Part shown: piece by piece, positions 10,698-44,110 of the stretch
Layout of the letters: each line of letters opens with the position of its first letter
Numbering within the stretch: the stretch's first letter is position 1
Assembly: GCF_001625215.2 (NCBI RefSeq)
Contig: NC_030386.2
Span: 36,397,296-36,461,295 of the forward strand
DNA length: 64,000 bases
Source of the DNA: Daucus carota subsp. sativus
Lineage: Eukaryota; Streptophyta; Magnoliopsida; Apiales; Apiaceae
Reading direction: 5' to 3'
The notes under the pieces: model-generated
What the model was told of the DNA's origin: nothing
Database searches by the model: none
Seen by the model: only the letters and a program-made list of their open reading frames with translations
Translations under genes and position numbers: made by a program

Positions 10698-11167
10698 ACA
10701 CTGTTGTTTGCTTGGCATCAGAATTGTATTTTTATTAAGAGAATTAAATCTTCTGGTAAATATAGAATAATGATAAGAAATAGCTACAATGCAGCATCAA
10801 ATGTCAACTATGGTCACTGGCTCACTGCCCCGTTCTCATGTCATGTCGAGGCACTGTCCAAAATTAATCAGTGATCTATCAAATTCTCTATTGAGCTGTG
10901 TAAGAATTCAAAAAAATAATTTAATCATCTGTTTTATGGAAGAACGATGGTTTTTTTTTTACATTTAATGTTTATTAATCAAAGATCATATAAGTATAGT
11001 TTTCGAAAAATAAAATCAATCAAAATTGAATGAACACAAAATAAGACGGTCTACACTCCATTGTACTCATCAATGAACTCGTATCATATGAGAAAATTAG
11101 AGATCTACGGTCCCAAGTCCGAACGCTAACATAAAGACTAGCTGAGGAGGGTGGAAACTAGAAAGTA
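10698..11167. other. Intergenic 3' flank of prolyl oligopeptidase
   Basis: Probable 3'UTR followed by AT-rich DNA. I see no gene, repeat or element boundary here until the TC start of the Helitron-like element at 11168. Confidence 0.5.
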
Positions 11168-11279
11168 TCTATATAATTCTTAAAGCATGAGTCATTTTTT
11201 AAGGCTGCTTTGGTAATTTCACTTTCTCTTGGATCAACCCATTAAGCTTCGGATCGACCCGGCAGCTTTCTCATTCAAC

Positions 11280-12590
11280 TTAACACTATGAAAGAATATT
11301 CCGGGTTTTTATGCGACCCACCCGATTTCCACTGGGCATGCAGCAAGTTCCTGCCATATCAGGAGCGTGGCATTTATTGTTGTTCCATTGATCAAGCCAC
11401 TCATTGAGCTTTTTGGATCTCATAACATCTTCCAACCGTATGAGAGTTTGAAAAAGGTATTGAATTCGGTTCCTCCAATCATGGCACTCATTACTACGTC
11501 TAATTGATTTCAAATTCAAACATGATAATTAATCATAACAAATCCGTGCTTATTTATCTAAATCAATCTCTTCCTCCTCCATTATGCTCTCTCTGCTATT
11601 TTTTATTTAAAATTCGAAATTCTTATTATCTACTTGCATCTATAATCATTTGATCATTTTTTTCTCTCTCGATTTGTAGAGTGTATGGTAGTAACATTTA
11701 TTTTATATTGCAGTGATAACGGTGGTCGTGTTTTTTTAGCATGAAGACGGATTCAACGTCGTCAACAGGTTTTGCAATCCTTTCGATGATAATGTTGCAG
11801 TATCGAAATCCTCGATTATAATCGTAAAATTTTGTTTCTGCAGGTGTGAAAAGAAATGGACGTGGATCGTGGTAAAAGTGTTGAGACAATTTCCAAGAAT
11901 CAAAAGAAAGCACATGCATCAGGTAATTGATTTCCGCACTAGAGTAAAGTTTTCATACGCATTCATTTTCAAGATACAGTACTCTTGGTCTTGGTTCCTC
12001 AAAAGTCTTGGACGCGATCGTATTGTCGTTAACGTCTTCATGTAGAATCATTAGTGTGATATACAACAATTTGTAATAAGTTTGTGTCTGTTATTAATTA
12101 ATAGGTATTCTCATGTGGGGAGCTCATATGATTCACCTAATATTGGATTAAGGTAGTTATTGGGTGAAAGTTTGGAAAGCTGGAGAGGCCTTTTTTGAAA
12201 GTATACGACCTCCACATATGGGATTGTAGCTTAGCATTGGTGTATGTTCTATTTTTTTGTATTTTTGTTCCAGTTTTTAAGTTTTTTATATTGTATAGAT
12301 GACATGATATTTTGTAATTAATTTTTTTGACATTATTTTTGCATAATTTCCTTTCGTATTGATAGTGATTATGATGCATATATGTCCACTAATGCATTTA
12401 TTGATCCTTTTTTTATGTTTGAGTTTTCTTTGCAGCTGCTGAAAAGAGATGATTCGTCCAGGCCACTATCGGATGCTCACCGTGTGAAGATTTATATTCA
12501 CTTTTTCTCAACATCTGATCAAGGCTTTTTGTTTACTTCTTATTGCGTGTCATTGTATTTTGACAAGAGACACCGAGAATGAGTACGACC
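11280..12590 (+). other. Gene-like fragments inside the Helitron-like element, unrecognised
   Basis: The base composition is less AT-rich than the arrays that follow, and two patches look like exons flanked by splice-like sites. One follows TTTCTGCAG near 11842 and ends in CAG|GTAATT near 11921; its open frame starts MDVDRGKSVETISKNQKKAH. The other follows TTTGCAG near 12434 and reads LLKRDDSSRPLSDAHRVKIY. I do not recognise either family. Capture of host exons is typical of Helitrons, so a captured, non-functional gene piece is the simplest reading. It could also be the remnant of an ordinary gene. Confidence 0.3.
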
Positions 12591-12603
12591 CAATTTCCGT
12601 CCA

Positions 12604-14020
12604 GATACATGAATCTAGCCTACTATAACTCATATGTGTATAAGGAAATGTTGTCAAAATATATTTGATTTTCGATGATTTTGGCATTAATTCTTTTTTG
12701 TATAATATGTAGTGGTTTCCATATTCACTATATTCAATTTTCAAATCTAGACCTTTTGTTATAATTTCAAATTAATGGAGTACTTTTTCACTTCACAATT
12801 TTAGCTCTCGATAAGAAAGTTTTTATATATTAGATTTTTAAATATTCGGATACATAGATCTAGACTGTTATAGCTCGCTCATATGCAAATAGGGAAGTCA
12901 AACTTTATTTGATTTTCATTGATGTTGACATTAATTACTAAAATACCATTTACATTTAATGTTTGTGGTTTCCACGTTCATTATATTTAAATTTTCAAAT
13001 CAAGACTTTTTGTTATAATTTTAAATTAATAGAGTTTTTTTTCCCTCCATAATTTTAGATCTTGATAAGAAAGTTTTTATATATTTGACATTTTAAATTT
13101 TTGGATATATGAGTCTATCATGGTATAACCCATATGTAAATAAGGAAAAATAGTCGAATTTTATTTTATTTAACTGATTTTGGCCGTTATTATTACAATC
13201 CTTTTTTGTATAATATATATTGGTTTCCATATTCAATACATTTAATTTTCAAATCAAGACTTTTGATATTTTTATATATTAATTATTATTTTTGAATATT
13301 TTCTGATACATGGATATAGACTGCTATAATTCATAGCAAAAAAGGAAACGTAGTCAAACATAATTTGATTTCCACTTTTTTTAGCATTTAATATTACAAA
13401 ACTTTTTCGTATAATTTGTGCAGTTTTCATATTTACTATATTCAATTTTCAGATGGACTTTTTGTTTTAATTTCCGATTAATGGAGTATTTTTTTTCACT
13501 TCACAATTTTAACTCTTGATAAAGAAGTTTCTATATATTAGACTTTTAAAATTTTCAGATACATGAATCTAGCCTGCTATAACTTATATGTAAATAAGGA
13601 AAAATAGTCAAATTTTATTTGATTTTCAATAATTTTGGCATTTATTATTACAATCCATTTTTGCATAAAATGTGGTGGTTTACATATACACTATATTTAA
13701 TTTTCAAATCAAAACTTTTTGTTATAAATTCAAATTAATGGAGTCTTTTCTCATTCCATAATTTCAGCTCTTGATATATAAGGAAGTATTCATACACTCG
13801 GTTTTACAAATTTTCGATACATGAATCTGGACTGTAATAGTTTATATGCGAATAGGAAGTCAAACTTCATTTGATTTCCACAGATTTTGACATTTATTAC
13901 TACAACAATACTTTTTCGTTTAATTTATACAGTTTTCATGTTCATTACATTCAATTTCCAGATCAAGAATTTTTGTTATAATTTCATTATTAATAGAGCA
14001 TTTTCTTTTCATACATGTGT
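12604..14020. repeat. Tandem array of about 245-bp units (five to six copies)
   Basis: The landmark GATACATGAATCTAG...TATAA...CATATG recurs near 12604, 12849, 13103, 13314, 13558 and 13816, a period of about 210-260 bp. Each unit also carries TGGTTTCCATATTCA-like and TTTTTGTTATAATTTCAAAT-like blocks in the same order. Copies are clearly diverged with small indels, so the array is not recent. It does not resemble the longer repeats that follow it. Confidence 0.85.
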
Positions 14021-17000
14021 GTGTAGCACGGGCCAAAATGCTTAAATAATTTTCATGTGGTAATAAATGAGCATATATTTATTTAAATAAATTAACAATA
14101 AAATTTTTTACATGCGGTTTATTATAATTTTTTGTTATTCTATTCAAGATACGAGGTGTTGCCATTAGGCGACAACGAGAAATTTTAATTATATAGTCAT
14201 TACTATTTTCATGTCTTTTATAAATATTTTTGAAAAAAATTTATTTTTCAATTATTTTAACTATACAATTAATGATTTAATAATAGATCCATAAACTTAT
14301 AAATTTTTATTCCAAACATAAATTATTATTATTATATTAAAATTTGGTTATATTAATGATACTAATAAAAAATCTGTTCCGTTATAAAATCGATACAGAA
14401 TCTATTCCATTATTGATATTTATGACGTATATATTCTTATTGTCAATTTCTAATATAGACAATAATTGTAGCATATAATTTTGGTAATGTAACTCAATTA
14501 TGACTACATATGTATTTCTTTTTTCTTTTTAAATCACACATGTATTTCTTTATTGATTATTCCTTCAAGGTTAATTATTTTTTAACATGTTTATCAATTT
14601 TTACTAAGGACGGGAGGAAACTCTATCATCAGCATATTCACTTTAATTAATGATACTAATGAAAAATCTATTACGTTGTCATTCATAACTTATATCTCAT
14701 ATCATACTGTTTGTTAATAAAAAAAATGTATAGCTTAACTGGAAAAAAAAACAAAAAAATCCTATCTGTGTACGTAGCACAGGCTAAAATGCTATGAGCA
14801 TTTTTTTATTTGAATTAAAATTTGATAGATGAGCATCGTTTTATTCAAATAACTTAACAATAAAATTCTTTGCATACAGTTTATTATTATTTTGTGCTAT
14901 TTTATTTAAGGTATGAGGCATCGCCGCTAGGCGACACCGAGTAACTTTAATTATATAATCATTACTATTTTCATGTTTTCTTATAAATATTTTAGATAAA
15001 AATTACTTAATATTTTTTTATTATTTTAACTAGACAAATAATGATTTAATAATATATCCATAAACTTATAGATTTTTATTCCAAACATGAAATACTATTA
15101 TTATATCAAATATTTGATTATATTAATGATATTAATGAAAAATATATCCCGTTATAAATATTTATCAATTTTTATTAAGGACGGGAGGAAACTCTATTAG
15201 CAGCATATTCACCATAATTTTATAATTAAGGAATGGAAGGAAGCTTTATAACTTGCATAACTGGGTTAAGTTTATTGTTATTTATGTTTCAAAATACAAA
15301 AATTTATATAGTACGCGTCGTTATAATTTCTGTTGTGTGACTTTATTTTTTTCATTCGACATTCGTATATATTACCTTTAACATCTACAGCGTATTGATC
15401 GCCAATAACATAACTCGGGTATTTTGACTGTTACCTACGCTGCCTTTCTGAACTTATATCTCATATCATACCGTTTGTCAATAAAAAAATGTATAGTTTA
15501 ACTACATAAAAAAATCAAAAAATCATACCCGTGTGCATAGCACGGGCCAAAATGCTATGAGCATATTTTTATTGAAATAAAAATTTGATAAAGGAGCATA
15601 TTTTTATTTAAATAACTTGACAATAAAAAATTTTACATACGGTGTACTATAATTTTTTGTTATTTTATTTAAGATTCGAGGAGTCGCCGTTAGGCGACGT
15701 CGAGAAATTTTAATTCTATAGTCGTTATTATTTTGGTGTCTTTTATAAATATTTTAGAAAATAATACCTGATATTTTTGATTATTTAACAATACAGATAA
15801 TGATTTGATAATAGATCCATAAAGTTATAAATTTTTATTCCAAACATGAAATATTATTATTATATTAAATATTTGATTATATTAATGATACTAATTAAAA
15901 ATCTATTCCGTTATAAAATCAATACAGAATCTATTCCATTATATATATTTATCACGTATATCTTTTTATTATCAATTTTCAATATAAGCAATAATCGTAG
16001 CATATAATTGTAGTAATCTAACTGAATGATGACTACATATGTATTTCTTTATTGATGTATTACCTTAAAGTTATTTATTTCTTAACCTATTTATCAATTT
16101 TTATTAAGGAAGGGAGGAAACTCTATCATTTGCATATTCACCTTAATTTTATAATTAAGGTATGGATTGAAGCTTTATGATACGCATAATCAGGTTAAGT
16201 TTATAATCATTTATGTTTCTAAACACAAAGATTTATATCGTCCGCGTCATTATAATTTTTGTTGCGTGATTTTATTTTTTTTCAATCGACATTCGTATAT
16301 ATTATGCTTAACATCTACAACCCACTGATCGTCAATAACATAACTCGAGTATTTTGACTCTTACATACGTTGTCTTTCATAACTTATATCTTATATCATA
16401 CTGTTTATTAATAAAAAAATGTATAGTTTAACTAGATTAAAAAACAAAAAATTATATCCGTGTGCGTAGCACGGGCCAAAATGCTACGAGTATATTTTTA
16501 TTTAAATAAAAATTTCATAAATGAGCATATTTTCATTTAAATAACTTCACAATAAAAATTTCACATATAGTTTATTATATTTTTTGTTATTTTATTTAAC
16601 ATTCGAGGCGTCGCCTTTAGACGACGCCAAGAAATTTTAATTATACAAACATTACTATTTTCATATCTTTTATAAATATTTTGGAACATATTACCTAATA
16701 TTTTTGATTATTTAACTATACAAATAATGATTCGATAATAGATCCATAAAATTATAAATTTTTATTCCAAACATGAATTATTATTATTATATTAAATATT
16801 TATTTATATTAATGACACTAATTAAAAATCTATTCCGGTATAAAATCAATACAGAATCTATTCCATTATAGATGTTTATCGCGTATATCTCTTCTTATTA
16901 TCAATTTTCATTACAGGCAATAATCGTAGCATATAATTTTAGTAATGTAACTGAATTATGACTACATATGTATTCTTTTATTGATGTATTACCTTAAGGT

Positions 17001-19379
17001 TAATTATTTCTTAACTTATTTATCAATTTTTATTAAGGAAGGGAGAATACTCTATCATTTGCATATTCACCTTAATTTTATAATGAAGTATGGATGGAAG
17101 AATTATAATACGCATAATCAGGTTAAGTGTTTATAATTATTTATGTTCTAAATACAAAGATTTATATAGTCCGCGTCCTCATAATTTCTGTTGCATGAGT
17201 TTATTTTTTTTCAATCGATATTTGTATATATTATCTTTAACATCTACAACGTACTGATCGTCAATAACATAACTCGAGTATTTTGACTCTTACATATGTT
17301 GCCTTTCATAACTTATATCTCATATTATACTGTTTGTTAATAAAAAATGTATAGTTCAACTAGATAAAAAAACAAAAAATCATACTCGTGCGCGTAGCAA
17401 GGGCCAAAATGCTACGAGTATATTTTTATTTAAATAAATTTTTCATAAATGAGCAAATTTTCATTTAAATAACTTAACGATAAAAGTTTTACATATAATT
17501 TATTATATTTTTTGTTATTTTATTTAAGATTCGAGGCATCGCCAAGAAATTTTAATTTTATAGTCATTACTATTTTTATGTCTTTTATAAATATTTTAGA
17601 AACAATTACCGAATATTTTTTTATTATTTTAACTATACAAATAATGATTTGATCATAGATCCATGAAGATATAAATTTTTATTCCAAACACGAAATATTA
17701 TTATATTAAATATTTGGTTATATTAATGATACTAATGAAAAATCTATTCCGTTATAAAATCAATGCAGAATCTATTCCATTGTAGATATTTATGATGTAT
17801 ATCCTTTTATTATCAATTTTCAATAGGCAATAATTATAGCATATGTATAGTTTTAGTAATGTAACTGAATTATGATTACATATGTATTTCTTTATTGATG
17901 TATTACTTTAAGGCTAATTATTTCTCAACATATTCACCTTAATTCCATAATTAAGGAATTGATGGAAGTTTTATAATACGTATAATCAGGTTAAGTTTAT
18001 AATTATTTATGTTTCTAAATTCAAAGATTTATATAGTCTGTGTCGTCATAATTTCCGTTGTGTGATTTTTTTTTTAAAATTGACATTCGTATATATTATT
18101 TTTAACATTTGCAACGTATTGATCGTCAATAACATAACTCGAGTATTTTGAATGTTACATACGTTAGTTTTCATAACTTATATCTCATATCATACTGTTT
18201 GTTAATAAAAAATTTATAGTTTAACTAGATAAAAAAAAAATCATATCCGTGTGCATAGCACGGGCGAAAATGCTACATGTATATTTTTATTTAAATAAAT
18301 TTTTAATAAATGAGAAAATTTTCATTTAAATAACTAAACAATAAAATTTTTACATATAGTTTATTATAGTTTTTGTTGTTTTATTTCAGATTCGAGGCGT
18401 CGCGCCGAGAAATTTTAATTATATAGTCATTACTATTTTTCATATCTTTTATAAATGTTTTAGAAACAATTATCGAATATTTTTTTATTATTTTAACTAT
18501 ACAAATAATGATTTGATCATAGATTCATGAACATATAAATTTTTATTCCAAACATGAAATATTATTATTATATTAAATATTTGGTTATTGTGATGATATT
18601 AATGAAAAATCTATTCCGTTATAAAATCAATACAGAATCTATTCCATTATAGATATTTATCACGTATATTCTCTTAGTATCAATTTTCAATATAGGCAAT
18701 AATTATAGCATTATATAATTTTAGTAATGTAACTATATTATGAATACATATGTATTCCCTAATTGATGTATTACTTTGAGGTTAATTATTTCTTAACATA
18801 TTTTTAAATTTAAATTAAGGACGGGAGGAAACTCTATCATCAGCATATTCACCTTAATTTTATAATTGAGGAAATGGAAGCTCTGTAATCTGCATAATTA
18901 GGTTAAATTAATAATTATATATATTTCTAAATACAAAGATTTATATAGTCCGTGTCGTTATAATTTCTGTTGCGTGATTTTATTTATTCAATCGACATTT
19001 GTATATATTATTTTTAACATCTACAACGTACTGTTCGCTAATAACAAAACTCGAGTATTTTGACTCTTACGTACGTTGCTTTCATAACTTATATCTCATA
19101 TCATACTGTTTGTTAATAAAAATGTATAGGTTAACTCGATAAAAAAAACAAAAAACATACACATGTGCGTAGCACGAGACAAAATGCTAATAAACATTTA
19201 AAATTCTATAATTTAAAACTCATAATAAATAATTTGACTGCGCTGATTACCCGCCAGATTTGGGGTTAAGCACGACATAAAGTATAGATTAAGTTTTTTT
19301 TTTAAAGCAAAGTATAAATTAAGTCGATAAAAATCAAAGAATCAATACCCGTGTGCGTAGCACGGGCCAAAAAAGCTAG
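14021..19379. repeat. Tandem array of 0.75-0.93-kb units, each bearing a Helitron 3' hairpin
   Basis: The hairpin core TAGCACGGGCCAAAATGCTA or close variants occurs near 14023, 14775, 15538, 16467, 17395, 18255, 19170 and finally 19358. The spacings are about 752, 763, 929, 928, 860, 915 and 188 bp. Between hairpins the order of blocks is constant: TTTATTTAAATAACTTAACA, a GAGGCGTCGCC...GGCGAC patch, TTCCAAACATGAAATATTAT, GACTACATATGTATTTCTTT, GACGGGAGGAAACTCTATCA, TTTATATAGTCCGCGTCGTT and CATAACTTATATCTCATATC. The two shorter first units lack part of the second half. The array ends exactly at the 3' terminus of the enclosing element. Confidence 0.88.
19348..19379 (+). other. Helitron 3' terminal hairpin and CTAG end
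   Basis: The palindrome CCCGTGTGCGTAGCACGGG can form a stem with CCCGTG pairing to CACGGG. It is followed about 10 bp later by CTAG and a host T. This is the replication-termination signature of plant Helitrons. Internal copies of the same hairpin in the array are followed by TGCTA plus a different sequence rather than CTAGT, so only this one looks like a usable terminus. Confidence 0.75.
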
Positions 19380-19720
19380 TTATGGATAATGGATAACAGT
19401 TTTTTCAATAAGAAGGGACTAATTAAATAAAATTAAATTAAAAGAATTAATAAAAGGGGTTTATCATCTGCCAAAATTAAAAAGGTCGATACCAGCAAAT
19501 AAGACATTAAAATTTCTGAGGGGGAATACTCATCGGTTTCCACATTTCCCTATTTCTATGTTTCATATTAGTATGATAAATTATAAAATTCGTTAATTTT
19601 CATTAAAAAAATTATAAATTTTTAGCAATATATAACTTATTATTTATGATTAATTAGTATTGAAAAATAATGGGAATGATTTTTGAAAATATTTTTTATT
19701 TTACATTTCCGAACTATTTT

Positions 19721-43975: not shown

Positions 43976-44110
43976 AATACTAGCTTAAAACCCGTGCATC
44001 GGCCATCAGCTATCATTAATATTTTATAGTTTTTTAGTATTATAATACTAGCTTAAAACCCGTGCGTCGGCCATCGGCTATCATTAATATTTTATAGTTA
44101 TTTACTATAT
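43976..44110 (-). mobile_element. Tandem pair of Helitron-like 3' ends (minus strand)
   Basis: Two nearly identical 62-bp copies start ATACTAGCTTAAAACCCGTG (near 43976 and 44038) and continue CATCGGCCATC or CGTCGGCCATC, then GCTATCATTAATATTTTATA. On the minus strand each ends GCACGGGTTTTAAGCTAG|T, the hairpin-arm plus CTAGT order of a Helitron terminus. The hairpin is imperfect, and I did not find the matching 5' end to the right. Confidence 0.45.

Follow-up and report, generated by a model that had tools for sequence, protein, structure and literature searches.

The canonical 3' end of plant Helitrons, as outlined in PMC6591975, is CTRR, mostly CTAG, with a GC-rich hairpin located 10-15 nt upstream. 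The locus of the carrot genome (Daucus carota subsp. sativus) described here raises the question of how a single element of this kind came to hold eight copies of its own 3' hairpin, and where such an element ends. We have analyzed a stretch of 64,000 nucleotides (contig NC_030386.2, positions 36,397,296 to 36,461,295, from now on the window), to which all positions given without a contig name refer.

The element extends from 11168 to 19379 on the plus strand (8212 bp) and is a non-autonomous Helitron with an A|TC start, a 3' hairpin and a CTAG|T end. The 5' terminal TC (11168-11169) follows a target A at 11167. Next comes a 5' region (11170-12688, 34.6% GC) in which neither the list of open reading frames nor a Pfam search revealed a recognisable protein domain. 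At the other side, the terminal segment (19179-19379) contains the terminal hairpin (19348-19366) and CTAG (19376-19379), followed by the target T at 19380, so that the element ends 13 nt after the hairpin. We searched the genome (441 Mb in 11 contigs) and picked 20 further copies for having a 5' and a 3' match within 10 kb, a choice that by itself partly selects for shared ends; among the members left out there were longer ones, with approximately 18-27 kb between ends. All 21 copies, window included, had A|TC and YTAG|T, each with different 20-base flanks. The 3' end was CTAG in 20 of them and TTAG in L021, and the identity of the other copies to the one in the window was 97-99% (over aligned pieces above 94% identity). 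How often copies end elsewhere is not measurable from this sample, as it was chosen by its ends.

Searches with the ends alone pointed to a larger family. The first 300 bp of the element gave 40 matches (40 of 146 candidates scored), the 5' pattern 118 versus 6 for its reverse, and the terminal 3' pattern 100 versus 0. For 82 of 100 listed 5' ends, a terminal-type 3' end followed on the same strand at no more than 40 kb, and for 55 at no more than 12 kb. The other 18 lacked a 3' partner, at least two of them due to the incompleteness of the 3' list (L052). The longest open reading frame listed in the element codes for 80 amino acids, and none of the five that were compared with Pfam reached the cut-off of any family, hence its description as non-autonomous. 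No parent gene for the 5' region appeared among the 40 of 277 candidates scored. Rep genes are numerous in this genome (168 matches, all but 18 of them listed, with all but 194 of 344 candidates scored), and none of the 150 listed fell inside the 82 paired intervals, which were built from 100 listed 5' ends and 100 listed 3' ends. The transposase would be provided by an autonomous relative.

The eight hairpins of the window copy are all on the plus strand. Seven were recovered at up to three mismatches, starting at 14014, 15528, 16457, 17385, 18246, 19160 and 19348 (shuffled sequences gave a mean of 0.00, n=100), and the more diverged eighth (14765-14783) was picked up by a looser scan, which bears out the count of eight made by the sequence-only reading. 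Successive spacings are 751, 763, 929, 928, 861, 914 and 188 bp; the intervals of 750-930 bp proposed in that reading therefore hold for six of them, while the last one is much shorter. Before the first hairpin there is a different tandem block (12689-14013, 23% GC) made of diverged repeats of about 250 bp, distinct from the hairpin units. Tandem Repeats Finder delimited it only in part (period 254, 2.3 copies, 12689-13264), and overlapping matches of one L050x stretch over 12606-14011 extend it to approximately 14011.

After the first internal hairpin (14014-14032, mismatch search and folding) come six units, each with a hairpin at its end. U1 (14033-14783, 751 bp) carries copy 2, located at 14765-14783, and is supported by the looser scan and the unit tree described below. 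U2 (14784-15546, 763 bp) ends in copy 3 (15528-15546; motif search, tree and folding), U3 (15547-16475, 929 bp) in copy 4 (16457-16475; motif search and tree), U4 (16476-17403, 928 bp) in copy 5 (17385-17403) and U5 (17404-18264, 861 bp) in copy 6 (18246-18264; motif search and tree). U6 (18265-19178, 914 bp) ends in the penultimate hairpin (19160-19178), followed by GCTAAT. When folded as single-stranded DNA, the hairpins at 14014, 17385 and 19160 did no better than shuffles, of which 157, 125 and 61 out of 200 folded as well, and for the other five at most 8 of 200 did. The terminal hairpin reached -7.3 kcal/mol (z -3.34), a value equalled by the one at 15528. Judged by inspection, the pairing of hairpin 2 is better in the window copy than in L023 and L024 only because of a change absent from both.

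The array is repeated in the other copies. All eight hairpins were found in 12 of the 21, with similar spacing except for the first gap in L021 and L032, and the remaining nine had between four and seven (deletions, insertions or hairpins below the threshold). We built a tree of 50 units, 30 from five of the 21 copies (six each) and 20 from other loci. In it, the units of a given position always grouped as one clade, giving six clades with a bootstrap of 100 each, and the divergence between units of one copy was roughly 10% or higher. Since the units cluster by position and not by copy, the array is older than the five copies tested and was transposed as one block, and we reject that it was built anew in each copy. 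This agrees with the earlier proposal that the array moves with the element, which ends at the last hairpin. Three loci (L031, L034 and L036) all lack the stretch corresponding to 17285-17456, hairpin 5 included, and the simplest reading is that this loss was passed on by transposition.

We joined the flanks of eight copies in search of empty sites. For L017, 32 sequences matched across the junction with 89-99% identity, a number explained by the dispersed repeat in which this copy sits. Two weaker junction-spanning matches each (79-84%) were obtained for L022 and L020. In a base-by-base comparison, three empty sites of L017 and one of L022 were free of gap columns up to 20 bases from the junction. 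The sister copies were therefore inserted between A and T with neither duplication nor loss of target. The window copy, L024, L026, L032 and L034 yielded no junction-spanning match among the 40 of 167 candidates scored. These sites and the ends shared with 20 other copies confirm the 8.2-kb Helitron of the sequence-only reading, which had placed its 5' TC at 11168 (the same in all 20) and its CTAG|T end at 19379/19380 (likewise, L021 reading TTAG). In this way the element shows the 5' TC, the 3' CTAG with hairpin and the A/T insertion without target site duplication of canonical Helitrons. Separate insertions at the window locus were also considered and rejected, as arrays built from these units also occur in the 20 copies located elsewhere in the genome. 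A second copy of the 3' end, at C1:10786669 (minus strand), lies some 23 kb from that of L017 and seems to share its 3' flank, which suggests that the region was duplicated locally or that the repeat holding L017 received a second insertion.

In some copies the number of units has changed. L024 has two units fewer, and its unit L024_x4 begins as U4 and finishes as U6, the single switch lying between bases 478 and 573. L033_x1 is a chimera that passes from U1 to U3 within bases 125-199. In a related subfamily, L045_m1 and L049_m1 have in common a noisier switch from U2 to U6. We read these three events in four elements as in-register recombination with breakpoints inside the units and not at the hairpins, as in unequal crossing-over. 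All the resolved events are contractions and no expansion was seen among them. Four of the five units of L050x cluster together with a support of 90/95, under the mark of 95 used by the tool, which hints at a lineage-specific gain of units. For the multiplication to six units, unequal recombination is the better explanation, and it has also been proposed for the unit number of Mothra (in the portions consulted of PMC4683698).

Another matter is why the internal ends are passed. Besides the 21 main copies we read 20 more 3' ends, 19 matches to the terminal 3' pattern plus L052, a miniature of the main family; as those 19 were selected by a pattern containing CTAGT, they are not independent evidence for a CTAGT ending. 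The miniature (L052 262-1263, 1.0 kb) retains both ends, the 5' one over about 143 bp and the 3' one over 829 bp. Each of the 20 matches parts of the window element. A penultimate hairpin was found 118-194 bp before the terminal one in 39 of the 41 ends (18 of the 20 further ones and all 21 main copies), the exceptions being L041 and L042. With 19180-19379 as query, the second matches, located just upstream of the terminal ones, covered only query positions 116-193 or less, at 78-88% identity. This last step, penultimate hairpin plus terminal segment, could plausibly derive from a read-through event. In L042 a single hairpin was found in 4.8 kb and it could be a relative without array; nearly all of its upstream part is unmatched to the window element, and for this reason it does not date the array.

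Three of these further ends are informative about termination. CTAGT comes after the penultimate hairpin in L037 (with one stem base changed) and L038, and GTAGT in L039, and all three continue 118-119 bp past this hairpin to the terminal end, with different flanks. The internal end of L038 looks complete by eye. They belong to one close group and do not amount to three independent trials. From this comparison, a hairpin plus CTAG|T need not stop transposition. The sequence-only reading had proposed that internal hairpins fail for want of CTAG|T. It is true that none listed in the main family has it, but the internal CTAGT hairpin bypassed in L037 and L038 implies that its absence is not the whole reason why internal ends are passed. 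A more speculative reading, which we consider doubtful, is that termination needs more than the hairpin and CTAG|T, perhaps the context of the terminal 120-200 bp, and that the internal ends, passed in every transposition, act as decoys or offer recombination a substrate by which element length is tuned.

Taken together, the explanation that we favour, with a probability of about 80%, is that the founder of the family already had an array of hairpin-bearing units of about 0.75-0.93 kb, that the array is transposed as a block and that in-register recombination alters the number of units. The founder of this non-autonomous family would have carried a tandem unit that includes the 3'-terminal hairpin region of the Helitron itself. 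New copies would arise by transposition from the single 5' end, presumably by rolling-circle copying, with the machinery passing the internal and partly decayed 3' ends before terminating at the last hairpin, the one that has CTAG|T. Afterwards, homologous recombination in register would change the unit number, in three cases by contraction and presumably also by expansion. As for the first extra 3' end, most likely the old terminus was bypassed into a downstream Helitron 3' end or there was a nested insertion, as has been described for Helraiser/Helibat (PMC4778049) and suggested for the 5' ends of FoHeli (PMC5148889).

Bypass could be given a larger role, if each round had read through the terminus into a flanking Helitron and added one 3' end. 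There is precedent, since about 11.7% of events with the intact Helraiser are reported to include the capture of flanking DNA (PMC4778049) and tandem Helitron arrays of bat and silkworm have been attributed to a skipped termination signal (PMC4067079, as far as its consulted sections go). The last step of 188 bp, unlike the units, could also be one such event, and it recurs, at this length or shorter, in 39 of the 41 ends. However, the units are in-register tandem homologues, orthologous by position in the tested copies, the resolved changes in number recombine inside them and none of the 21 main-family copies exceeds the hairpin count of the window copy. Repeated bypass as the origin of the array therefore seems unlikely to us. 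The repeated failure of termination or multi-round replication that the sequence-only reading had put forward as the builder of the array finds no support either, given the orthology of the units and the recombinants that break inside them.

Tandem units could also be generated by replication on a circular intermediate, a model put forward for the centromeric Helitrons of plants (Xiong et al., 2016, as cited in the part seen of PMC12628747). At least one array of this type exists in the same family, with four 5' ends at C1:4506854-4517307, spaced by 3.4-3.5 kb. This locus (L059, C1:4506600-4517307) has its four 5' ends ahead of one terminal-type 3' end at C1:4501254, which is that of L045 and itself has internal hairpins. 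The monomer that we read is 3502 bp long and identical to the next over an overlap of 273 bp, and it contained no hairpin at up to four mismatches. Such multimerisation predicts many 5' ends and one 3' end, whereas in the window element the 5' end is single and only a segment on the 3' side is repeated, which makes this origin quite improbable here.

Some members of the family lie next to each other. In L018 (around 8718), L023 (around 5327) and L052 (around 1263), the 5' region of a second copy comes directly after the 3' CTAG, in each case lacking its first six bases (TCTATA). These six bases are found upstream in L023, an arrangement that fits what a nested insertion would leave, and are absent in L018 and L052, where a rolling-circle junction or a later loss is possible. 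An extra TCTATA appears right before the 5' end in 3 of the 21 copies (L023, L034 and L036), and in L034 and L036 the 20 bases after the 3' end are unlike a Helitron start. Elsewhere in the window, at 43979-44065 on the minus strand, there are two identical Helitron-like 3' ends (GCACGGGTTTTAAGCTAGT), tandemly duplicated 68 bp apart and both with CTAGT; three other places match them, the best at 77%.

That the unit was an independent satellite captured by a Helitron is highly improbable. In its favour, Helitrons are reported to carry satellite-like arrays (in the text consulted of PMC12628747), and for 16 of the 100 internal motifs listed (out of 332) no listed terminal-type 3' end lay in the next 40 kb downstream, four of these motifs forming a close group at C4:14322210-14344883. 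Against it, the unit finishes with 3' terminal sequence of the Helitron itself, internal-type motifs number only 332 genome-wide at up to three mismatches, and the other 84 of those 100 lie within 40 kb upstream of a same-strand Helitron 3' end (3 of 100 in the opposite-strand control). The satellite-like behaviour suggested before is thus limited, with 332 motifs in all and most of those listed lying upstream of Helitron 3' ends. At C4:14322210-14327665 (minus strand) there are three internal-type motifs with a spacing of 2.7 kb and no listed terminal-type 3' end within 80 kb downstream.

This family is a natural experiment on the recognition of Helitron 3' ends, in which seven old termini are passed and the stop is at the eighth. 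It also allows telling apart two processes that are often mixed, the copying of a whole array by transposition and its change in length by in-register recombination. In practical terms, end-finders that count hairpins could over-count such elements.

Helitrons with tandem blocks are already known. DHH_Mothra of rice (PMC4683698, compared by description only and from part of the text) is likewise non-autonomous, with TC/CTAG ends and a hairpin, and has two separate blocks of tandem repeats, the variable unit number being put down to unequal crossing-over or slippage. Its subtypes measure 1252-2741 bp versus the 8.2 kb of the carrot element, and copies of the 3' hairpin inside the repeats are not described in the sections consulted. 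FoHeli of Fusarium oxysporum (PMC5148889, consulted in part) resembles our case in having extra termini in mobile copies, explained there by self-insertion, but these are typically short (<200 bp) 5' duplications and not 3' ends within kilobase-scale units. Helraiser/Helibat (PMC4778049) shares the 3' hairpin terminator, the bypass of the 3' end and the new 3' ends in natural copies, with no tandem array of 3' ends described in the portion seen. The titles and abstract openings that we searched did not name tandem 3' ends inside a Helitron, which is weak evidence of novelty given their thin coverage of subscription journals. The centromeric tandem Helitrons of plants (Xiong et al., 2016, known to us as cited in parts of PMC12628747 and PMC6591975) are also tandem arrays of Helitron parts, many of which combine several 5' ends with one 3' end. 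In the window element a single 5' end goes with eight 3' hairpins, of which one has CTAG|T. What seems new here is that the repeated unit contains the 3' end of the element itself, the converse of those arrays.
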